Both the position numbers and the translations under genes were made by a program. A DNA stretch of 33,172 nt from Phycisphaerae bacterium (GTDB lineage: Bacteria; Planctomycetota; Phycisphaerae; Phycisphaerales; SM1A02). Each line of letters starts with the position of its first letter. The stretch's first letter is position 1. The stretch lies in assembly GCA_002862305.1 (NCBI GenBank), contig PKCS01000018.1, positions 1-33,172 on the forward strand, given 5' to 3'. Of the stretch, positions 15,641 to 29,574 are shown piece after piece. The notes beneath the pieces were generated by a model. It saw only the letters and a program-made list of their open reading frames with translations, did no database searches and was not told where the DNA came from.

Positions 15641-16237
15641 TCAGAACCCGACGGTCGCCTTCTGACCCTGCTTGGTGACGTCCGCGACCTTGGTCCAGAC
15701 CTCGAGGCCGGTGTTGGGATCGGTGAGGGTGAGCCGGAAGGTGAAGGTCGCCTGCCGGGTGGATCCCGCGGATCGCCGCAGCTCGGTGATCTTGCCGCTC
15801 AGGGTGTAGTCGGGCTCCACGTCCGGCTGGGTGCCGGACTCGAAGGACCGCCGACGCAGCTCCTCGAGGGCGGCGGGATCCTCCGTGTACTTGCCGTAGG
15901 CGGTGATGACCTGGGCCTGTCCGGAGTTCACCAGCTGCTCGCGCATGCGATAGGTGAGCTCGCCGACGTCGAACTGGGAGCCGGTGTCGTTGACGATGGG
16001 GTTGATGAGGAGCCGCGCGGGCTGGGTCGGCGACCGCCTGAGCACCCCGGTCTGGAGCATCGACTGGAGCAGCTCGCTGGAGGCCATCTGGATGTCCTGG
16101 ATGTCGACCTGGCTGACGGTGACCACCGACTGGGTGCCCCCGGTCTCGACGTACTTGGCGCCGCTCTTGCAGGCGGCGAGGCCGGTCGCGACCAGCAGCA
16201 GGGTGCCGAGGACGAGGCCGTTCGGGAGGTTGATCAT
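15641..16237 (-). CDS. LpoB-like lipoprotein (penicillin-binding protein activator family)
   Basis: The 198-residue product has a lipoprotein signal ending in the lipobox LAAC (about residues 20-23). It has the LpoB-family features: SVVTVSQVDIQDIQMASSEL, RLLINPIVNDTG, FDVGELTYRMREQLVNSG, PDYTLSGKITEL and FRLTLTDPNTGLEVWTKVADVTKQG. In E. coli LpoB reaches from the outer membrane to activate PBP1b; here that function is only inferred and may not hold if the organism lacks such enzymes. ATG 16237 has AAGGAG about 7 nt upstream; the frame opens to 16303, but that would lose the signal. It is the last gene of a four-gene operon, and the YcfL-like gene stops 28 bp upstream, as next to lpoB in E. 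coli. Confidence 0.85.
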   Translation of the reverse strand: MINLPNGLVLGTLLLVATGLAACKSGAKYVETGGTQSVVTVSQVDIQDIQMASSELLQSMLQTGVLRRSPTQPARLLINPIVNDTGSQFDVGELTYRMREQLVNSGQAQVITAYGKYTEDPAALEELRRRSFESGTQPDVEPDYTLSGKITELRRSAGSTRQATFTFRLTLTDPNTGLEVWTKVADVTKQGQKATVGF

Positions 16238-16265
16238 GAAGGGGCTCCTTCGATTGGGGTCGGGC

Positions 16266-16673
16266 TCAGTTGCTCCGACGGGTCTGAAGCTGGAAGGTTT
16301 CACAGGTGTCGTTCGGCGCGACGGAGGAGATCACCACGGTCCCGCCGGAGGCGATCGTCGCGGTCTGCCAGGTCGATCCCGAGGGGACCTGCATGCCGTT
16401 GGCGTCCAGCCACTCGAACTGGTAGGCGAACCGGCGGTACCGGAAGTCGTCGTTGGCCACCGTGACCTGGACCTGGTAGGGACCGCCGGGGGTGCGCGCG
16501 AACCGCACCGCCTCGGCCTTGAGGAAGATGCTGGTCAGGGCGTCGTTGATCTGTTCCTGGTACCGGGTCTTGCCGGGTTCGTCGCCGGCGGTCGCCCGGT
16601 AGGTGTTCACCGACCCGCAGGCGGACAGGAGCATGGCCGGGACCAGGAGTGCGCTCAGGAGGATTCGGGTCAT
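16266..16673 (-). CDS. YcfL-like (DUF1425 family) lipoprotein
   Basis: A 135-residue lipoprotein. The signal MTRILLSALLVPAMLLSAC has a lipobox LSAC at 16-19. The mature part is a beta-rich domain with the family features VQVTVANDDFRYRRFAYQFEW, DANGMQVPSG and TIASGGTVVISSVAPND. Cys126 near the end may be unpaired. YcfL is of unknown function but is encoded beside lpoB in E. coli, and the same pairing here supports both calls. The ATG overlaps the upstream COG3014 stop as ATGA, and AAAGGAA lies 8-9 nt before it, so translation is probably coupled. Confidence 0.83.
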   Translation of the reverse strand: MTRILLSALLVPAMLLSACGSVNTYRATAGDEPGKTRYQEQINDALTSIFLKAEAVRFARTPGGPYQVQVTVANDDFRYRRFAYQFEWLDANGMQVPSGSTWQTATIASGGTVVISSVAPNDTCETFQLQTRRSN

Positions 16674-18148
16674 TCCGCGGGGTTCCTTTCGCTCGGGGAG
16701 GGGACGGTGGACCCGGGGTCCACCTCGGGGGGTAGTGGCGGCGAGGGCTCGCCGGGGGCGAGGCGGATCGACTCGATCCCGGCCTGGGGGGCGGCCGGCC
16801 CGGGCAGGGTCGCGACCACGAGGTTGTGTTCCGACGGCTGGACCCGGACGGTGCCCAGCAACCGATCGTCTGAGGTTCGTACCGAGATCGTACCGGATGG
16901 TGGCGTGGAGGTCCGGGCGGCGTAGATGAACTTGGGCAGAGTTCGCCAGGTTCTGAGGTCCGCGGCGGTGGTGACCGCCTGGTAGATGATCCCCGCGAGG
17001 TTGACCAGTCCACCCGAGTCGCCGGCGGCCTGGGACGCGGCCCAGGTCCCGACCGTCTTGATCGCGGCGCTGAGCACCTCCTGCATGACGATCACCGGGA
17101 GGCGCCGGGAGTAGTCCGCGGCGATCATCGCATCGACGTCGGCGAGCAGCACCCCCTCCACCACCTGGTCCCCGACCACGAGGCGGAGTCCCGCGGGGGC
17201 GTCGGGGACCGGCTCCAGCACCGGGAACGCCGCGGCGACGTAGTTCACGTCCCCCACCGGGATGGGGATGTCCAACCGGAACTCCTCCAGGCGGGGCGCC
17301 AACCCGCTCATGAAGACCACCCAGGTGCTGGGGGTGAACCGGTTGAGTTCCAGGGACTCGAGGTCGGGGTCCACCAGCGGACTCGCGTCGGGGTTCATCG
17401 CGACCACCTCGCGGAGGTCGAACCGGGCGTTGCCCAGGTCGCCGACGTCGCTGGCGTTGGCGATCAGGAAGATCCCCCGCAGCCAGCTGGTGAACGGGTT
17501 GCGCCAGTCCGCGTAGGCCTCGAGGTCCCCCAGTCCGGAATAGGCGTCACGCAGGGCCGCGGGGACCTCCAGGCTCTCCTCGGGGACCCCCTCGTCCTCC
17601 GCCTTCTCCGAGAGTGCGCGTTCGGAGCGCTCGATCTCCTCCTGCGCCTTCTCGACCGCGTCCTGCTGCCAGGCGCGGGCCCGGTTGAGCTCGATGCGCG
17701 CTTGGTCGGGCTGGCCGAGCCGCAGCCGGTTGATCGCCTGGAGGGTGTTGAGCATGATCCGGTCGGTGACCGTGCCCCGGTATTCGGAGACGGTCTGGTT
17801 GACCAGGGTGGTGGTGATCGCCTCGGTGACCCTCGCCTCGGGTTCGGTGTCGAGGTACGGGAGGACCGCCTCGAAGGCGGTGTCGTAGTAGCGCGTGCTG
17901 TCCTCGATGCGCCCCGCGATCTGGGCGGTGCGTCCCGCCTCCAGCAGGTAGATCACCCGGCTGACCGAATCGGTGCCCGCGGCCGCGAGTGCCTTCGCGG
18001 CGGTGTCCGCCGCCTCCGGATACTCGCCGGCCAGCTCCTGGCTGGCCACCAGCGCCGAGGAGGACCGGTAGTCGCTCTGGCAGCCGCCGAGCCCGGCGAG
18101 GGCCACGGCGACCGCGACCACGGTGCGGGAGAGTCCAGTCGGCCCCAT
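16670..18148 (-). CDS. COG3014-like lipoprotein with TPR-like N-terminal half
   Basis: A 492-residue protein of unknown function. It starts with a lipoprotein signal ending in LGGC (about 20-23). Residues 35-200 contain helical pairs that look like TPR repeats (EYPEAADTAAKAL, AGRIEDSTRYYDTAFEA, LRLGQPDQARIELNRARAW), then a charged coiled stretch EKAQEEIERSERALSEKAE. The C-terminal half includes LPVIVMQEVLSAAIKT and LRTWRTLPKFIYAART, which I recognise as the COG3014 pattern, a family often encoded with YcfL- and LpoB-like lipoproteins. The final 40 residues are Pro/Ser-rich. It lies 7 bp after the CsgG-like gene, with GGGGAG about 10 nt before ATG 18148. It is likely a periplasmic scaffold of the same complex, by inference from the operon. 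Confidence 0.75.
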   Translation of the reverse strand: MGPTGLSRTVVAVAVALAGLGGCQSDYRSSSALVASQELAGEYPEAADTAAKALAAAGTDSVSRVIYLLEAGRTAQIAGRIEDSTRYYDTAFEAVLPYLDTEPEARVTEAITTTLVNQTVSEYRGTVTDRIMLNTLQAINRLRLGQPDQARIELNRARAWQQDAVEKAQEEIERSERALSEKAEDEGVPEESLEVPAALRDAYSGLGDLEAYADWRNPFTSWLRGIFLIANASDVGDLGNARFDLREVVAMNPDASPLVDPDLESLELNRFTPSTWVVFMSGLAPRLEEFRLDIPIPVGDVNYVAAAFPVLEPVPDAPAGLRLVVGDQVVEGVLLADVDAMIAADYSRRLPVIVMQEVLSAAIKTVGTWAASQAAGDSGGLVNLAGIIYQAVTTAADLRTWRTLPKFIYAARTSTPPSGTISVRTSDDRLLGTVRVQPSEHNLVVATLPGPAAPQAGIESIRLAPGEPSPPLPPEVDPGSTVPSPSERNPAE

Positions 18149-18155
18149 CAGCGGA

Positions 18156-20303
18156 TCACTCCCCGAGCAGCTGGGCCCAGATGCTTCGACCGCCCACGTT
18201 CAGGTTCCGCACCTGGGAGGTGTCGATGCGTACGTTGCTGTTGCGCAGGAACTCCGCGAAGGCCCGGACCGCGGTCAGCTGGGACTCGCGAAGCACCTCC
18301 CCGTCCTTGAGCGCCTCGAGGACCTCGATGTTCTGGACCCATTGGCGTCGACCCGACTCCGAGAGGTTCATCGCGAACCGGAGCTGCTGCCCGTCGAGGC
18401 CCGGGCGGACGTTGACCACCTGCTGGAGGGGCGTGAAGAGCGGGTGCTCGATGGTCAGGCGATGCAGTCCGGAGCTGATGCCCAGGTTCCCGGGAGCGGT
18501 GCCCGCGAGCACGCCGTCGACCAGCACCCGGGCACCGACCAGCGAGATCGGCAGGCGGGCGGAGGCGACGGTGAACCGACCGTCGGGGTCCGCGACGATG
18601 TCGGGGACCTCGAGTCCGCTGGCGACCAGGGCGATCGAGACCTCGACGTCGCCCGCGTCGACCACGGTCGGGGCGGGCAGTGCGCGAATCGCGTCGCCGG
18701 AACGGCGACAGACGTTGCGGGAGGCCTCCTGCAGCAGGTCGTCGATCGGATCCACGTCCTGGGTGAGTTCCGAGGTCCGCCGGATCGACTCGGAGGCGTC
18801 GGCCGAACCGCCGTAGATCGAACCGCCGGTCGCGCCGTCCACCACCCGCAGGGTGACCCCGAGGGTGTAGGTACGGACGTTCGACCGGACGCCCAGCGAC
18901 GGGTCGTCGAAGGCCCGGTCGTCGATGGTGTAGTTGGTGATCGAGGCGACGAGGATCGTGTCGGCCCCCAGCAGCTCCGCGAGCCGGACCGCGGACGCCT
19001 GCTCGGAGAGGGCCTGCTCCACGACCTGGGACTGGGACTCGGGTGATCCGGTGTTGGGCCCGTCACCGGCGAACCGGGCGACCCCGTTGATCAGGTCCGC
19101 GCGGGACACCACCGAGACGCCCTGCCCGCTCAGGCAGGCGGTGATCTCCTCCTCCAGGCGGGCGGTGCTCGACGCGGGGAGGTCCGAGGCCAGCAGGCGG
19201 GTGAAGATCGCGAAGGTGCGCGCGGAGCGGCCGGGCGCCTGGGTCGGAGCCGGGGAAGCGGTCTTCGCCCCCCCCGACTCCCCGGACGCGGCCCCTCCGG
19301 GACCCCCCGAGGATGCGGGGGCGGTGGTGGCGGCGCCGGATCGGTCGGACCCCCCGGCGGTCCCGGCGGGGTCGATGCCGGCGGGCAGTCCCTGCGGGCG
19401 GAAGCGCATCAGGGACCCCTTCTGGATCCCGTTGTCCACGATCGCCTGGGCCTTGGAGAAGCGTTCCCCGGCCTCGGTCACGCGCGCCCAGCCCACGGGG
19501 ACCTCCTCGCTGCCGAGTTCCGCCCCGGTGTCCGGGTCGACCAGGGCGGGACCGGCGTGCATGACCTCCCAGATCTGCCCCGCCTCGACGCCGGAGGCCG
19601 CGGTCCGGTTGAAGCTGACCTGCCCGAAGCTGTAGGCGAGCACCTTGGCGGGGAACACCGCGCTGGTGATCGCCTCCGCGGACTCCGAGGCGAGGCTGGC
19701 GGCGACGGTGGCGAGGACCGCCTGGGTCGTGTTCCCGGTGCGCTCGACCCCGGGGATGACTTCCTCGAGTTCGCTGCGGTCGATCCGCAGCGGGGCCGAG
19801 CTGAGCAGGCGGCCGCTGGTGGTGTCGTAGACCCGCACCACCCCGGAGAGCTGGATCATCCGACGTTCCGCCTCGGTGGCCCCCAGCTGCTTCTGGAGCA
19901 CGGTACGGTCGGTGATGTCCTGGAAACCGTCGACGGTGAGGATCGTGACGTACTTGGCGCCCGCGAGCTGGAAGCCCCGCGCGGACGCGGGATCGAGCCG
20001 GTCCACCAGTCCGCTGGCCGCGAGGTCCTGTTCACCGAGGATGGTGCTCAAATCGCCGCGCGCCACGATGTCGAACTTCTGCGTGCGCTGGAGCTGGGCC
20101 TCCATCTGCCCCTCCGCGCCCTGCACGATCTGCTCGAGGGCGTTGAGGGTCCCGGCGGCCTCCGCGGCGGCCTGCACCGCGGGCGTGGCCTCGAACCCGC
20201 GGATCGCCATCGTCGCCTTCTGGGCCAGCGCCGGGGCGGCGAGGAACAGGGCCAGGAGGGCGCCGAGGCCGGGCGCACGAAGGGAAGGGCGGTTGATTTG
20301 CAT
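18156..20303 (-). CDS. Secreted two-domain CsgG/LpoB-like protein with PEGA-like domain
   Basis: A 715-residue exported protein. Residues 1-27 are a signal peptide with an ALA cleavage site and no lipobox Cys. Residues about 28-225 resemble a CsgG/FlgT-type domain (TMAIRGFEATP, FDIVARGDLSTILGEQDLAASGLVD, GAKYVTILTVDGF, GVVRVYDTTSGRLL). A Gly/Ser/Ala/Pro linker covers about 309-356. A second CsgG-like domain follows (FAIFTRLLASDL, VSVVSRADLINGV, LLGADTILVASITNY, VTLRVVDGATGGSIYGG). Residues about 555-645 look like a PEGA domain (ARVLVDGVLAGTAPG, SGLHRLTIEH). ATG 20303 has GGAGCGAG upstream; the same frame is open far into ffh, but that part is antisense. It is the first gene of the COG3014-YcfL-LpoB operon. 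The function is unknown; it is probably an envelope scaffold. Confidence 0.8.
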   Translation of the reverse strand: MQINRPSLRAPGLGALLALFLAAPALAQKATMAIRGFEATPAVQAAAEAAGTLNALEQIVQGAEGQMEAQLQRTQKFDIVARGDLSTILGEQDLAASGLVDRLDPASARGFQLAGAKYVTILTVDGFQDITDRTVLQKQLGATEAERRMIQLSGVVRVYDTTSGRLLSSAPLRIDRSELEEVIPGVERTGNTTQAVLATVAASLASESAEAITSAVFPAKVLAYSFGQVSFNRTAASGVEAGQIWEVMHAGPALVDPDTGAELGSEEVPVGWARVTEAGERFSKAQAIVDNGIQKGSLMRFRPQGLPAGIDPAGTAGGSDRSGAATTAPASSGGPGGAASGESGGAKTASPAPTQAPGRSARTFAIFTRLLASDLPASSTARLEEEITACLSGQGVSVVSRADLINGVARFAGDGPNTGSPESQSQVVEQALSEQASAVRLAELLGADTILVASITNYTIDDRAFDDPSLGVRSNVRTYTLGVTLRVVDGATGGSIYGGSADASESIRRTSELTQDVDPIDDLLQEASRNVCRRSGDAIRALPAPTVVDAGDVEVSIALVASGLEVPDIVADPDGRFTVASARLPISLVGARVLVDGVLAGTAPGNLGISSGLHRLTIEHPLFTPLQQVVNVRPGLDGQQLRFAMNLSESGRRQWVQNIEVLEALKDGEVLRESQLTAVRAFAEFLRNSNVRIDTSQVRNLNVGGRSIWAQLLGE

Positions 20304-20336
20304 GGGTCTCGCTCCAGTTTTTCCGTGAAGAGTGGG

Positions 20337-20342
20337 TAGAAT
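20337..20342 (+). promoter_or_regulatory. Putative -10 box (TAGAAT) of ffh
   Basis: TAGAAT matches TATAAT at 5 of 6 positions and lies 58 nt before the ffh ATG, in the 97-bp divergent gap with the CsgG-like gene. No convincing -35 is seen. AGGGA about 10 nt before ATG 20401 serves as Shine-Dalgarno. Confidence 0.4.
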
Positions 20343-20400
20343 CGAGCGGTCGTGCGCGGGGGCTTCACCCGCCAGCCAGCAGCCACAGGGATCCGAACAG

Positions 20401-23339: not shown

Positions 23340-23756
23340 TCAACCGTCCTGGAACTTGACCTGGCGACCATCCGCGCACTCGTCATCCCCGAATGCCTCG
23401 AGCAGGTCGTAGACCCCGCGGAAGTCGGCGAGCGAGTCGTCGTCGGTCTTGGAAAGCGTGCCTTCGTTGACCAGAACGAACACGATTCGTCCGAAGTCCT
23501 CGGTGCGGTGGATCTGCCAGTGCCGCAGCACGGCGGGGGCCATGATCCCCCATCGCTCGATGGCGAAGTCGCGAAGCCCCATGCAGAGTTCCTGGCCCTT
23601 CATGTGCCGGGGCTGGTTGGGGTGGTGCTGCCCCGCCTCCTCCAGCCGGCACTCGGTGTAGCCGAGTCCCTCGCGCACGAAGTCGTAGGCCTCCTCCGGA
23701 TAGGGCAGGCTGGTTCGGGCGAGTTCGGACTCGAAGTCGTGCTGGGTGGTGTCCAT
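23340..23756 (-). CDS. Minf_1886-type protein (Planctomycetes/Verrucomicrobia-restricted family)
   Basis: A 138-residue soluble protein of unknown function. The core YPEEAYDFVREGLGYTE, GQELCMGLRDFAIERWG, APAVLRHWQIHRTEDFGRIV and FRGVYDLLEAFG matches, from memory, the Minf_1886 or 'Verruc_Plancto-restricted' family (TIGR04138). No signal peptide or membrane segment is visible. GGAG lies 4 nt before ATG 23756. A TAGAAT box lies about 32 nt upstream. Its restricted distribution supports the taxonomic guess. It stands upstream of the permease gene with a 29-bp gap. Confidence 0.85.
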   Translation of the reverse strand: MDTTQHDFESELARTSLPYPEEAYDFVREGLGYTECRLEEAGQHHPNQPRHMKGQELCMGLRDFAIERWGIMAPAVLRHWQIHRTEDFGRIVFVLVNEGTLSKTDDDSLADFRGVYDLLEAFGDDECADGRQVKFQDG

Positions 23757-23788
23757 GGGGCTCCGCCTGGGTGGATGGTGATGTCCTG

Positions 23789-23819
23789 ATTCTACGCAGA
23801 CATCCGACCCACGTGCCAA
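23789..23819 (-). promoter_or_regulatory. Putative promoter of the Minf_1886-type gene
   Basis: The minus strand reads TTGGCA, a 19-nt spacer, then TAGAAT (5 of 6 to consensus). The spacer is longer than the ideal 17. The box is followed by about 32 nt and then the GGAG-led ATG at 23756. It is the clearest sigma-70-like promoter noticed here, but untested. Confidence 0.45.
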
Positions 23820-23869
23820 CCCTTTCATCGGCAGAACCGGCCAGATTCCACCACCGGCCGGGGAATCGC

Positions 23870-25132
23870 TCAGGCGCCGGGCCCGAGCAGGGTCAGGACG
23901 TCGTGGCCTGGACGGATCCTGACCGGATTGGAGGACTCCAGTGGCAGGGCGATCAGGCCGGTCGTGACCCCCGGTTCGATCAGCACCTGCTCGAGCGGGA
24001 CGCCGAGGGCCGCGGCGCCGTGCACCGTCGCCATCGGAAGCCACTGCTCGAGGGTGGCGCCGTCCTCCTGGAGGAGCAGGACCTCGTCCGCGATCGACAG
24101 TCGGTTCGCCGCCGGCCCGGATGCCGGCAGGCAGGGCCGGCCGTCGGTCCCCAGGGCGACCGGGACCCCCGCCCGGAGCATCGCCGCCCAGGGGTGAGCG
24201 GTGGCGCCGTCCTGCGGGTGACCGAAGTATCGGTAGGCTCGCGGGCAGTAGACCACGGTGGCGCCGTGCTCCGCGAGCGCCTCGAGGTGCCGGGGTTCGC
24301 AGTAGTTCGCGTGGGCGACCACCGTCCGGGGCGAGGGCTCCAGCCGAGGCAGGTACGCCTCGAGGGGATGCGCGCCGGGTGGAGGCACCTCCTCGGGGGC
24401 GTACCCCATCGCGGCCAGCCGGGTCCCGAACGGTCCCCCGCCGTCGCGGCACCACGCCAGTTCCTCCTGGGATTCCGCGAGGTGGGTGGAGACCGGCAGC
24501 CCGGAGGCCTGCGCGGCGGTGTAGACCCCGACCGCGGTCGAATACGGCGCGTGGGGCGAGCAGCCGGGGACCAGCCCGTGCCTCGATGGAGCGAGTTCGC
24601 CGATCGCGTCCACCAGCGCCCGGGCCGCATCGATCCGGGAGCCGTGCCCGAGGACCTCGACGAACCCGACCCCCCCCAGGACGCTGGCGGCCAGCGCCCG
24701 GTAGGCGCGAATCGAGCCGCACACGTCCCCCACGAACGGGCATCCGCCGCGAAGGGAGGCGGCCACCCCCTGCTCGACGGCGGCCTCCACCGCCCCCGGG
24801 GCCTGCTGCGCGCGCCGGTGCCTGATGATCGCCCCGATCCAGCCGTCGAAGTCCCCCGCCTCCGGGAGGGGCGGGAGGTCGGAGAGGTCCAGGTGGACGT
24901 GGGCGTTGACCATGGGCGGGGCGACCAGGTGTCCTGGGTGGGAATCGACCACCACGTCCGGCCCGGGGGTGCCCACCACCTCCGGCGCCCCGGAGGCCAG
25001 GACCCGCCCGTCCTCGACCAGCACCACCCCGGGTGCGTGCACCGACCGGGCGTCCGCGACCACCGAGGCTTGAATCATCCGGCGGGAATTCGAATTCACG
25101 GTCTCACCCTGTGCATCATGACGGTTGGGCAC
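23870..25132 (-). CDS. Amidohydrolase family deaminase, possibly aminodeoxyfutalosine deaminase (MqnX-like)
   Basis: A 420-residue cytosolic metal-dependent hydrolase. The metal ligands are VNAHVHLDLSDL (His78, His80), STHLAESQEE (His217, Glu220), AHANYCEPRHLEAL (His274) and LGTDGRP (Asp330), with CSPHAPYST in between. The WIGAIIRHRRAQQ segment after the HxH and the YCPRAYRYFGH motif resemble the SsnA/MqnX deaminases, which act in futalosine-route menaquinone synthesis. The substrate is a guess, since no other mqn gene is near. The first possible start is GTG 25132, with GAGGGG 6 nt upstream; GTG 25099 and ATG 25078 are alternatives. It is divergent from the OmpA lipoprotein gene with 112 bp between starts. 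Confidence 0.75.
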   Translation of the reverse strand: MPNRHDAQGETVNSNSRRMIQASVVADARSVHAPGVVLVEDGRVLASGAPEVVGTPGPDVVVDSHPGHLVAPPMVNAHVHLDLSDLPPLPEAGDFDGWIGAIIRHRRAQQAPGAVEAAVEQGVAASLRGGCPFVGDVCGSIRAYRALAASVLGGVGFVEVLGHGSRIDAARALVDAIGELAPSRHGLVPGCSPHAPYSTAVGVYTAAQASGLPVSTHLAESQEELAWCRDGGGPFGTRLAAMGYAPEEVPPPGAHPLEAYLPRLEPSPRTVVAHANYCEPRHLEALAEHGATVVYCPRAYRYFGHPQDGATAHPWAAMLRAGVPVALGTDGRPCLPASGPAANRLSIADEVLLLQEDGATLEQWLPMATVHGAAALGVPLEQVLIEPGVTTGLIALPLESSNPVRIRPGHDVLTLLGPGA

Positions 25133-26217: not shown

Positions 26218-26481
26218 CGCAAAATGGGGAAAGAATTAACTGGATCCAGACCCCGAACCGGTAGCCTAGGGACGAGTTAGAGAGAGCTTCCGGATGTCCC
26301 TCGTCCGGACCAACGAACCCAACCGGATCCCCCGCTGTGAATGGAGGCGGCGCGGGCTCCACCAGGATCCCACCGCGCGGCCTCGATGCCGGTGGACCGC
26401 GTCCCGGGCCCCGGGCGATCGAACCTGGCTTCACGTCACGACCACCACCGCAAGACACCAGAGATGAAGGATCGAACCACC
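26218..26481 (+). other. Leader region of the secreted repeat protein gene
   Basis: This is most of the only gene-free stretch above 300 bases (26106-26481). It opens with an AT-richer patch (26221-26240, AAAATGGGGAAAGAATTAAC) that may hold a promoter; TAGCCT at 26262-26267 is a weak -10 candidate. GGACGAG (26270-26276) and CTCGTCC (26300-26306) form a 7-bp inverted repeat with a smaller CCGGA/TCCGG stem inside the same area. The frame of the next gene is open back to ATG 26341, but that part is Arg/Pro-rich and not signal-like. I see no RNA gene or known riboswitch. Confidence 0.4.
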
Positions 26482-29400
26482 ATGACCAGCAGCAGCATCC
26501 ACCTCGGACTCGCCGGCGCCACCGCCCTGATGGGACTGACCGTCGCGAACCCCGCGATCGCCGGCACCCAGGGAGTCACGATCGAGATCAACGAGATACG
26601 CATCGAGCAGACCGGCGCCGACCTCGACCACTACGTCGAGCTGAAGGGCACCCCCGGCGCGCCCCTCGACGGCCTGGCCTACGTGGTGGTGGGCGACCAG
26701 TCGAGCGTGTTCCCGCCGCAGCAGAACGGCTACGTCGAGGAATTCGTGGCCCTCGACGGGTTCGCGATCGGCGCGGACGGCTTCTTCGTGATCGCGGAGA
26801 GCTCCTTCTCGCTCTGCGTCCCGGACCTCGTCGCCCCGTTGAACTTCGAGGGCAACGACAACGTGACCCACCTGCTGATCGAGAACTGCGGCGTCGGCCT
26901 GGGCAGCACCCTGGACACCGACGCGGACGGGGTGGCCGAGGGCCTCGCCGGCTGCACGGTGGTGGACTCCGTGGCCCTGATGCAGTCCCTCAACCCCGAC
27001 GGGATCGCCGACGACCTCGTCTACTCGAGCACCCTGGTGGGGCCCGACGGGGGCCAGGTCCCCGCCCAGGCCTATCGGTGCGCCGACACCGGCGCCTGGG
27101 GCTTTGGAGGGGCCGACCTCGGCGAGTTCGACACTCCCTGCGCCGAGAACCTCGCCTGCAGCGGCGGGTCCGGCGGAGGCTCGGTGCTGATCAACGAGAT
27201 CCGCATCGACGATACCAGTACCGACGACAACGAGTACTTCGAGCTGAAGGGCGAGCCGGGCACGACGCTTGACGGGCTGGCCTACATCGTGATCGGCGAC
27301 GGATCCGGCGGCAGCGGGGTCCTCGAGCGGATCATCCGGCTCGACGGACTCGCGATCAACGGCGACGGACTCTTCCTCGCGGTGGCCGACACCTTCAACC
27401 TCGTGGGCACCCCGGACCTGATCGCGGGCGGGAACAACCTCTTCGAGAACAGCGACAACGTGACCCACCTGGTGGTGCGCGACCTCGCCCCCACCGCGGC
27501 CACCCAGGACGACCTCGACACCAACGACGACGGCGTCCTCGACTTGATCCCCTGGTTCGAGGTCGTGGACTCCATCAGCCTCATCGAGTCCGTCGGGTCC
27601 GGCGACCTGACCTACAGCGAGAACACCGTGGGACCGGACGGGAACTTCGTCCCGGGCCACTCCTACCGGTGCTCGCCCGACGACGTGTGGACGATCGGCT
27701 CGTTCTTCGAGTCCGACGGCACCGACACCCCGGGCGCCGAGAACCTCCCCTGCCCCGGCGAGGGCGGCTGCGGCGGCCCGGACCCCGTGAGCTGCTTCGC
27801 GCCCAACGCCAGCGGCGGCTGCTCGGACGCCGCCTGCTGCACGCTCGTGACCAACGTCGACCCGGGCTGCGCGACGGACTGGGACGCGGACTGCGTCGCC
27901 CTGGCCCAGAGCCTCTGCGTCAGCTCCGGCCCCGCCCCCGAGGTCCGGCTCTCCGAGCTCCGGACCAAGCAGGGCGGCAACGACCTCGACGAGTTCGTCG
28001 AGCTGAGCGGCGCCCCGGGCACCAGTCTCGACGGCGTCAGCCTGGTGATCGTCGGCGGCGAGGGCACCGACACCAACGGCGTCATCGAGGGCACGGTGAA
28101 CTTCTCCGGCCAGACCATCGGGAAGAGCGGACTCCACGTGGTGGCGGAGGACTCCTTCGCGCTCGGTGTGGCCGACGCGATCCAGGAGCTGCCCTTCAAC
28201 GACTTCAACAACAAGACCTACCTCCTGGTCTTCAACTTCACCGGCGCGGTCAACGCGGACCTCGACTCCGGCGACCAGTGCGTGCTCGACAGCCAGCCCT
28301 GGGATGCCCTGCTCGACGAGGTCGCGGCGGTCGGCCCCGCCGACAAGGCCGGCTCGATCGGCAACTGCATCTACTCCGCGGTCACCGTGGGCCCCGAGGG
28401 CAACTTCCCCCCCGCCCACATCTTCCGCTGCACCAACACGACGGGGGCGTGGTCCTTCGGCACCTTCAACCCGACCGACCCCCTCGCGGTGGACACCCCG
28501 GGGGCCCCGAACCCCTCCGACTGCTCCACCGACCCGGTCACCGTGTGCGGTGACGGGTCCTGCGACGTGGGCGAGGACGAGGTGAGCTGCCCCGAGGACT
28601 GCAGCACCGGAAGCGGCTGCCCCGCGTTCGATGAGCGCGGCATCGTCGCGCCCTGCACCACGATCTTCGAGACCCTGGACCCGAGCTGCTGCACGACCTG
28701 GAGCGACGCCTGTCAGTCGATCTACGACAGCTACTGCAACTTCCAGTCCGCGCCGCCGGCCCCGGTGAAGATCAGCGAGATCCGCCGCGACCAGTTCGGC
28801 ACCGACGACGACGAGTACGTCGAGTTCAGCGGGGAGCCGGGCTCCTCGATCGACGGGCACACCCTGCTGGTGATCGGTGACGGTTCCGGCGCCTCCGGCG
28901 TCATCGAGCAGGCGCTCCCCCTCGCGGGCACCTTCGACGACTCGGGGCTGCTGGTCCTCGCGCGACCGTTCGTGGCCGGCGAGGTCGAGGGCGAGGGCAG
29001 CGGCTTCAACCCCGCCCTCGGCACCCCGGACATCGTGTGGCCCGAGAACTGGAGCTTCGAGAACAGCGACAACCTCACCTTCATCCTGGTCTACGGCTAC
29101 CAGGGCGTGGGAGGCGACCTCGGCCGCAACGAGGACCTCGACGCCACCGACGACGGGACCCTCGATTCCGCACCCTGGCTCGCGGAGGTGGACTGCCTCG
29201 CGCTGATCGAGACCGATCCCGCGATCGAGGGCGAGCTGGTGTACTGCACCGAGCAGGTCGGTCCCAACGGGACCTTCGCACCCGGGCACGTCTACTTCGA
29301 CTGCGCGCTGGAGTCATGGCAGATCGGGCTCATCGACCCGGTCGGCGCCAAGGGCACGGACACCCCCGGCGCGGCCAACCCCGGCTGCGACCAGGTGGCC

Positions 29401-29574
29401 CCGCCCTGCCCCGGCGACTTCGACGGCAGCGGTGACATCAACGGCGCGGACCTCACGTTCCTGCTCGGGGTCTGGGGCACCGAGAACCTCGAGTTCGACC
29501 TCACCGGTGACGGCCTCATCAGCGGCGCGGACCTGACCATCCTCCTCGGCGGATGGGGCTTCTGCCCCGAGTGA
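26482..29574 (+). CDS. Large secreted protein with four lamin-tail-like repeats, Cys-rich inserts and C-terminal dockerin
   Basis: A 1030-residue exported protein. The signal MTSSSIHLGLAGATALMGL ends at about residue 28 (AIA). Four repeats of about 190-205 residues follow, each opening with INEIRIxxxxxDxDEYVELxGxPG and closing with VGPDGNFxPGHxYRC and DTPGAxNxxC. These resemble lamin-tail (LTD) domains. Two Cys-rich modules sit after repeats 2 and 3, each with a DPxC...W...C pattern. The end (29412-29571) is a dockerin-like pair, GDFDGSGDINGADLTFLLG and LTGDGLISGADLTILLGGWG, with calcium-loop Asp residues, ending FCPE. ATG 26482 has AAGGA 10 nt upstream; ATG 26464 adds six residues. The function is unknown; it is probably a cell-surface or released adhesion or structural protein, and no enzyme domain is visible. 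Strongly acidic. Confidence 0.85.
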   Translation: MTSSSIHLGLAGATALMGLTVANPAIAGTQGVTIEINEIRIEQTGADLDHYVELKGTPGAPLDGLAYVVVGDQSSVFPPQQNGYVEEFVALDGFAIGADGFFVIAESSFSLCVPDLVAPLNFEGNDNVTHLLIENCGVGLGSTLDTDADGVAEGLAGCTVVDSVALMQSLNPDGIADDLVYSSTLVGPDGGQVPAQAYRCADTGAWGFGGADLGEFDTPCAENLACSGGSGGGSVLINEIRIDDTSTDDNEYFELKGEPGTTLDGLAYIVIGDGSGGSGVLERIIRLDGLAINGDGLFLAVADTFNLVGTPDLIAGGNNLFENSDNVTHLVVRDLAPTAATQDDLDTNDDGVLDLIPWFEVVDSISLIESVGSGDLTYSENTVGPDGNFVPGHSYRCSPDDVWTIGSFFESDGTDTPGAENLPCPGEGGCGGPDPVSCFAPNASGGCSDAACCTLVTNVDPGCATDWDADCVALAQSLCVSSGPAPEVRLSELRTKQGGNDLDEFVELSGAPGTSLDGVSLVIVGGEGTDTNGVIEGTVNFSGQTIGKSGLHVVAEDSFALGVADAIQELPFNDFNNKTYLLVFNFTGAVNADLDSGDQCVLDSQPWDALLDEVAAVGPADKAGSIGNCIYSAVTVGPEGNFPPAHIFRCTNTTGAWSFGTFNPTDPLAVDTPGAPNPSDCSTDPVTVCGDGSCDVGEDEVSCPEDCSTGSGCPAFDERGIVAPCTTIFETLDPSCCTTWSDACQSIYDSYCNFQSAPPAPVKISEIRRDQFGTDDDEYVEFSGEPGSSIDGHTLLVIGDGSGASGVIEQALPLAGTFDDSGLLVLARPFVAGEVEGEGSGFNPALGTPDIVWPENWSFENSDNLTFILVYGYQGVGGDLGRNEDLDATDDGTLDSAPWLAEVDCLALIETDPAIEGELVYCTEQVGPNGTFAPGHVYFDCALESWQIGLIDPVGAKGTDTPGAANPGCDQVAPPCPGDFDGSGDINGADLTFLLGVWGTENLEFDLTGDGLISGADLTILLGGWGFCPE
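26581..29390 (+). repeat. Four diverged in-frame repeat units of about 570-625 bp
   Basis: The units run about 26581-27160, 27184-27753, 27940-28530 and 28765-29390. Shared protein marks are the opening (I/L)(N/S)E(I/L)R, ELKG/ELSG/EFSG-x-PG, (L/I)DG near residue 30, FENSDN or similar in units 2 and 4, and the closing VGPxGxFxPxH plus DTPGA. Units 2 and 4 look closest. Spacers hold the Cys-rich modules (27754-27939 and 28531-28764). Confidence 0.85.

Follow-up and report, generated by a model that had tools for sequence, protein, structure and literature searches.

The contig PKCS01000018.1 of a Phycisphaerae bacterium (assembly GCA_002862305.1), 33,172 nucleotides long and called here the window, meaning the whole stretch of DNA that was analysed, carries on its minus strand an operon of four genes for exported envelope proteins. 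Gene 1 (20303-18156) codes for an exported protein of 715 residues, with a CsgG/FlgT-like domain, a second CsgG/PelC-like domain and a PEGA domain. Gene 2 (18148-16670) codes for a 492-residue lipoprotein composed of a TPR-like N-terminal part and an alpha/beta C-terminal domain. Gene 3 (16673-16266) specifies a lipoprotein of 135 residues that belongs to the DUF1425/YcfL family, and gene 4 (16237-15641) a lipoprotein of 198 residues whose LpoB domain is held on a short tether (Cys23 to Asp48). Genes 1 and 2 are separated by 7 bp, genes 2 and 3 overlap by 4 bp and genes 3 and 4 lie 28 bp apart. A signal peptide with lipobox cysteine is present in genes 2, 3 and 4 (C23, C19 and C23, respectively), and this cysteine is invariant in the family alignments of all three (26, 23 and 29 rows). 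The signal of gene 1 is of the cleavable type, cut between ALA and Q, and its signal region contains no lipobox cysteine. Reading frames and spacing thus match an initial annotation of this DNA, made from the letters alone, which had described four exported products in tight order, three of them lipoproteins. As the same families adjoin one another in distant genomes, the four genes form a real set and not a chance arrangement.

The calls of CsgG, PEGA, DUF1425 and LpoB families made in that annotation were all upheld by sequence searches, each scoring above its Pfam cut-off. Gene 3 matches PF07233 (DUF1425) with E=1.4e-15 and 57.4 bits against a cut-off of 28.3, and its profile finds the solved structures 3o0l (E=1.1e-15) and 4gio (2.8e-8). 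Gene 4 matches PF13036 (LpoB) with E=2.6e-18 and 66.7 bits, the Pfam cut-off being 22.3, and misses the NCBIfam equivalog cut-off of TIGR02722 (73.4 vs 110.55 bits). Its profile recovers E. coli LpoB (2mii, 4.7e-10) and, weakly, PelC (5t11, 0.0037; 5t10, 0.0066), while a PDB sequence search with gene 4 alone gave no match.

Gene 1 begins with an ABD-type domain (residues 28-219, 19647..20222; minus strand, as for all its domains) that is recognised as CsgG (PF03783, E=2.2e-7, 30.9 bits against a cut-off of 20.8, residues 24-170) and is predicted to have the fold of FlgT, the TolB N-domain and LpoB. It is followed by a small beta domain in place of FlgT_C (residues ~219-301, 19401..19649), a second ABD-type domain (residues 360-544, 18672..19226) and the PEGA domain (PF08308, E=6.8e-6, residues 590-635, 18399..18536). 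The two CsgG-like domains proposed initially therefore stand on different grounds: the first is a Pfam match, whereas the second (~360-544) has none and is supported by its predicted fold. The AlphaFold2 model of gene 1 (pLDDT 78, pTM 0.45) is reliable per domain only. Searched with Foldseek, it matched FlgT first (3w1e, 1.9e-13), then the cryo-EM LPHT-ring entry 8z5n (2.2e-13), in third place GNA1162 (4hrv, 8.5e-8), and then CsgG. In VIA-align, where Z scores differing by less than 1 count as tied, residues 29-308, which include the small beta domain, matched FlgT 3w1e with Z 13.1 over 216 residues and a root-mean-square deviation of 12.0, so that the domains are placed differently in the two proteins. 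Residues ~360-544 matched CsgG (6lqh, Z 13.0), PelC (9h80, Z 12.1) and GNA1162 (4hrv, Z 11.7), and TolB, LptE and LpoB come shortly after. No Pfam model of FlgT exceeded its cut-off in gene 1 or in any other protein scanned; the best score among gene 1 relatives was 28.7 bits for FlgT_M (cut-off 31.2), and FlgT_C matches, all below cut-off, occur in CsgG-like neighbours of other genomes. A PDB sequence search with gene 1 yielded nothing beyond two weak matches to Tic22 (E 0.18-0.20), which we take as chance. Long hairpins are present in the model, and by a crude measure the long strands of both ABD-type domains show no clear hydrophobic alternation.

In Brocadiaceae and in Geobacteraceae/Desulfuromonadaceae the halves of gene 1 are two neighbouring genes of the operon, the N-terminal half being CsgG-like and the C-terminal half comprising the second ABD-type domain and PEGA. 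Because these halves exist there as separate adjoining genes, gene 1 of the window has the look of two operon partners fused into one. Several other planctomycetes carry two CsgG-like genes, some with extra Ig-like domains (L099, L103, L108). At one further locus (L110 3528-7169, a record shared with L140), the CsgG/FlgT_C-type domain adjoining genes 2 to 4 ends a 1214-residue frame that has two protein kinase stretches, possibly a signalling version of the protein.

Gene 2 exceeds the cut-off of no Pfam or NCBIfam model. The label COG3014, given to it in the initial annotation, was returned by no search. Its AlphaFold2 model (pLDDT 89, pTM 0.88) consists of a predicted TPR-type helical part (residues 24-270) and an alpha/beta domain (274-462) containing a helix of 37 residues, with no beta-barrel. 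The C-terminal domain bears the motif ADLRTWRTLP, in which D397, R399 and W401 do not vary across an alignment of 44 rows. Fold matches in the PDB are confined to the TPR part, which fills the rows, so they do not bear on the novelty of the C-terminal fold. One of them is LpoP, matched by its C-terminal domain (6w5q, Z 14.9, 104 residues), which is likewise a TPR domain; given the helical repeats, this likeness means little.

A scan of GTDB with one genome per species returned 300 relatives of gene 2, the best 80 of which were kept as named loci; a partner was counted as present when it lay on the same strand at a distance of no more than 6.5 kb. LpoB accompanies gene 2 in 79 of these 80 loci, and the remaining one (L165) is cut by a contig end. 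Both DUF1425 and LpoB are found in 68/80, and at least one CsgG-like gene in addition to them in 36/80. The loci come from six phyla: Planctomycetota, Verrucomicrobiota, Thermodesulfobacteriota (Geobacteraceae, Desulfuromonadaceae), Myxococcota, Nitrospirota and Pseudomonadota, the last with Hylemonella, Shewanella, Alcanivorax, Moraxellaceae and others. LpoB-YcfL, initially regarded as a proteobacterial pair, is instead part of a cross-phylum operon among these best 80 loci. At six of them (L159, L169, L182, L193, L209, L216) two consecutive DUF1425 genes separate gene 2 from LpoB. Within our phylum sample of 149 Planctomycetota genomes, the gene 2 profile matches 92 (the weakest doubtfully), LpoB is found in 90 (87 above cut-off, some of them CsgG-like proteins) and DUF1425 in 36; gene 2 and LpoB form a pair, at most 5 kb apart on one strand, in 65. 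The ycfL gene adjoins lpoB in E. coli K-12 as well, and no relative of gene 1 or gene 2 is annotated there in the 6.5 kb around lpoB. Synteny with the E. coli genes hinT, thiK and nagZ was considered and rejected: tblastn against the 80 named loci matched ycfL and lpoB only, the hinT query being a fragment.

The resemblance of gene 1 to FlgT raises the question of flagella. FlgT forms the H-ring of Vibrio together with lipoproteins FlgO and FlgP, as stated in the portions of PMC7990780 and PMC6375700 that concern it. The operon could accordingly be a flagellar accessory, the H-ring of planctomycete flagella, and the genome of the window does have FlgI matches. Across the 149 Planctomycetota, however, FlgI occurs in 37/65 genomes with the gene 2-LpoB pair and in 46/84 without it (p = 0.87), that is, with no association, and the 28 pair-bearing genomes without a FlgI match largely refute the idea. 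No flagellar family was found among nine scanned neighbours in the window. A search of the own genome for FlgO (PF17680) gave no match, and its control likewise matched in no genome. We therefore rejected a flagellar role on the missing co-occurrence and consider it very improbable.

LpoB is known as the activator of a class A penicillin-binding protein (PBP), PBP1b, and the operon may be an ordinary E. coli-type activator, as LpoB and DUF1425 domains above Pfam cut-offs would suggest. In the own genome, 96.6% complete, no match to the class A glycosyltransferase domain PF00912 was found, the control being positive in 10/14 genomes; a class A PBP could lie in the missing ~3%. The initial annotation had named a class A PBP carrying a docking domain for LpoB as a refuting observation, and this search found no such protein. 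A planctomycete without class A PBPs has been reported (PMC8406291, in the part of that paper dealing with it). The operon does not look like a replacement for these enzymes, an idea that we rejected: PF00912 is present in 6/65 pair-bearing and 15/84 other Planctomycetota (not found in 59 and 69 of them, respectively), a depletion that is not significant (p = 0.16), and among the 44 genomes behind named loci it occurs in 37/37 non-planctomycetes and 0/7 planctomycetes. The initially proposed tie between the operon and a lack of class A PBPs thus failed, and the operon looks independent of them.

UB2H is the docking site of LpoB on PBP1b. The corresponding role of UB2H for LpoP is described in an available section of PMC7267771. 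When at least 75 of 85 positions are taken as nearly full-length, UB2H is present in 14/16 gammaproteobacterial operon genomes and in 0/28 others among the 44 tested. Five further genomes, one gammaproteobacterium and four others, gave weak partial rows; in the four others they lie in frames of more than 1100 residues, which are probably Mfd, and G203 rises above the cut-off once its rows are joined. Gammaproteobacteria that have both operon and UB2H possibly use it with PBP1b.

The length of the LpoB tether, counted from the lipobox cysteine up to the first aspartate conserved in the LpoB domain, also separates the operon from the E. coli protein. It is 25 residues in gene 4 and 59 in E. coli LpoB (Cys20 to Asp79). 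Where gene 2 is in the locus it spans 19-32 residues in all 123 distinct sequences (median 23; 22-26 in 119 of them). According to the parts of PMC7267771 and PMC9593243 that treat these activators, LpoB and LpoP have a long disordered N-terminus in common (PMC7267771), and the PBP1b-activator model includes the disordered LpoB N-terminus and passage via pores of the wall. With a tether under half the E. coli length, the missed TIGR02722 cut-off, UB2H restricted in nearly full-length form to Gammaproteobacteria among the genomes tested and no PF00912 at home, the operon of the window is probably not a PBP1b activator; this explanation, refuted here barring a class A PBP in the missing ~3%, is the least credible of those weighed.

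Wall synthesis may be linked to the operon by another route, with LpoB sensing the wall from the outer membrane and activating synthases of the RodA/FtsW type, i.e. regulating a SEDS/class B PBP pair. The own genome codes for two SEDS proteins and two PF00905 transpeptidase proteins besides lacking a PF00912 match, SEDS genes occur in 147/149 Planctomycetota, and gene 4 is an LpoB homologue. Such near-universal presence nevertheless proves nothing, and the tether of 25 residues compares poorly with the 59 of E. coli LpoB. We regard regulation of SEDS synthases as unlikely, though worth keeping in mind.

In a tree of LpoB built from 60 of 130 rows, the E. coli protein sits on a branch so long (6.98 changes per column) that it cannot be placed. 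LpoB of the Brocadia group (L093, L142, L149) falls among gammaproteobacterial rows with support 98/88, apart from that of other Brocadiaceae (L096, L097, L199), which may reflect transfer between phyla. Genes of the MacA (HlyD), ABC and MacB/FtsX types lie near the operon in Brocadiaceae (L093 11701-14876, L097 3634-6862 and other Brocadia-type loci). They accompany the planctomycete-type LpoB (L097) and the gammaproteobacteria-like LpoB (L093) alike, possibly because of a functional link or of replacement in place.

Neighbours within 6.5 kb of the 80 named loci were clustered, and among the 25 or fewer largest clusters listed no client gene common to all phyla was seen. Some of these clusters are mere antisense shadows of operon genes and others are lineage-local. 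The rest include ABC-type ATPases, a ubiquitous family, at 34 loci, a HlyD-type protein (14 loci) and a MacB-type permease (10 loci), both largely from Brocadiaceae, and a MutS-like gene assigned by eye (14 loci); nine examples of the transporter-type genes were run against Pfam. An Lcl_C protein, whose domain was tested for L147 12922-13485 only, forms a cluster of 20 loci and lies 3' of LpoB in the loci listed. None of the recurring neighbours listed could be recognised as a polymerase or substrate gene. These data bear on a further explanation, a pore for export of a polymer or amyloid, or part of an efflux system, in which gene 1 would be a CsgG-type channel or gene 4 a PelC-type collar and gene 2 a PelB-like TPR partner. 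CsgG and PelC rank near the top of the fold matches for gene 1, the LpoB profile weakly matches PelC, as noted above, and the Brocadiaceae transporter-type genes would suit it. Against this, gene 1 carries no lipid anchor, its strands show by our crude measure no clear alternation of the kind expected of a barrel, the gene 2 model has no beta-barrel, and the recurring neighbours listed include no recognisable polymerase or substrate gene. An export pore accordingly ranks next after the SEDS regulator and is, like it, unlikely.

We propose, with a probability of about one half, that the operon codes for a periplasmic ring or scaffold that is anchored in the outer membrane, is of the same kind as FlgT, CsgG and PelC, and depends neither on flagella nor on class A PBPs. 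This is favoured because the set is conserved, FlgT is the best fold match of gene 1, the halves of gene 1 are split elsewhere, the LpoB tether is short, no PF00912 was found at home and FlgI is not associated with the operon. The three lipoproteins would sit on the inner leaflet of the outer membrane, and the tether of ~25 residues would keep the LpoB domain close beneath it. The LpoB domain and the two related domains of gene 1 may then assemble into a ring through FlgT/CsgG/PelC-type contacts, while the TPR arm of gene 2 might recruit a client or connect to the wall, and the YcfL and PEGA domains might brace the assembly. A platform that supports or assembles the envelope seems more likely than an export pore. 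Of the earlier interpretation, an outer-membrane assembly unlike that of E. coli, the anatomy is in keeping with our findings, whereas its ties to a proteobacterial pair and to the lack of PBPs found no support; the observation is confirmed and the interpretation only partly supported.

Several points weigh against a ring or scaffold. The putative ring is drawn from analogy with FlgT, CsgG and PelC. ABD-type domains are present in TolB, LptE and LpoB as well, so the fold is no proof of a ring, these proteins being monomers or parts of other machines. Nor does gene 1 bear a lipid anchor, and its model, with a pTM of 0.45, is sound only domain by domain. A CsgG-like gene was seen beside genes 2 to 4 in only 37/80 loci, and among the clusters listed no client recurs across phyla, transporter-type families excepted.

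The wider history is more tentative. An ancient flagellum-independent outer-membrane ring machine may have been present in at least six phyla, E. coli keeping YcfL and LpoB, with LpoB losing its ring partners, lengthening its tether and becoming the PBP1b activator; this remains a doubtful but possible course. The E. coli LpoB-YcfL pair may thus be a specialised remnant of an older set. Adjacency of ycfL and lpoB in E. coli, the long tether and fast evolution fit such a remnant, although the LpoB tree, with its long branch, does not show descent of E. coli LpoB from the operon.

The operon is divergent from ffh (SRP54), with ~100 bp between them (20304-20400). A sigma-70 scan of this interval gave nothing promoter-like, a promoter and terminator scan found none, and a tRNA scan of the window was likewise negative. 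Long reading frames at 23340-24743 and 26341-29574 have no Pfam match at 1e-6 and are putative genes.

The domain families themselves are already known. No description of the operon was found in open-access literature, subscription journals being mostly outside the search. Nor was one found there for the gene combination, for its spread, or for the finding that it is unlinked to flagella and to class A PBPs. LpoB is known as the dedicated partner of one E. coli enzyme. That its family shares an operon with a FlgT/CsgG-like protein, and does so in planctomycetes in which no enzyme of this type was detected, suggests that the family had an older function elsewhere, and the four genes are a concrete set for tracing it. 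A group of bacteria that often make their walls without class A PBPs would also gain an outer-membrane assembly that is so far unstudied.

The operon can be compared with several characterised systems. The Neisseria lipoprotein GNA1162 is the third Foldseek row of gene 1; its gene adjoins a CsgG-type gene and one for a small lipoprotein, partner families that probably differ from those of the operon. The CsgG curli channel has a Pfam domain and a fold in common with gene 1, which differs in having no lipid anchor, two such domains per chain and, by our crude measure, no evident barrel strands. The PelC/PelB exporter of exopolysaccharide resembles the operon in an ABD-type lipoprotein adjoining a TPR protein, in the fold match of the second domain of gene 1 and in the weak LpoB-profile match, and differs in that the gene 2 model has no beta-barrel. 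E. coli YcfL-LpoB consists of members of the same two families as genes 3 and 4, adjoining in K-12 and here, whereas no class A PBP was found here and the tether is 25 rather than 59 residues. Finally, the polar-flagellar H-ring of Vibrio, whose make-up is given in the consulted part of PMC7990780, is approached in that residues 29-308 of gene 1 match FlgT best and in the combination of one periplasmic protein with outer-membrane lipoproteins in a set. The operon departs from it by having no flagellar link, by a second domain and PEGA in gene 1, and by the addition of a TPR lipoprotein and YcfL, neither mentioned for the H-ring in that part of the source.

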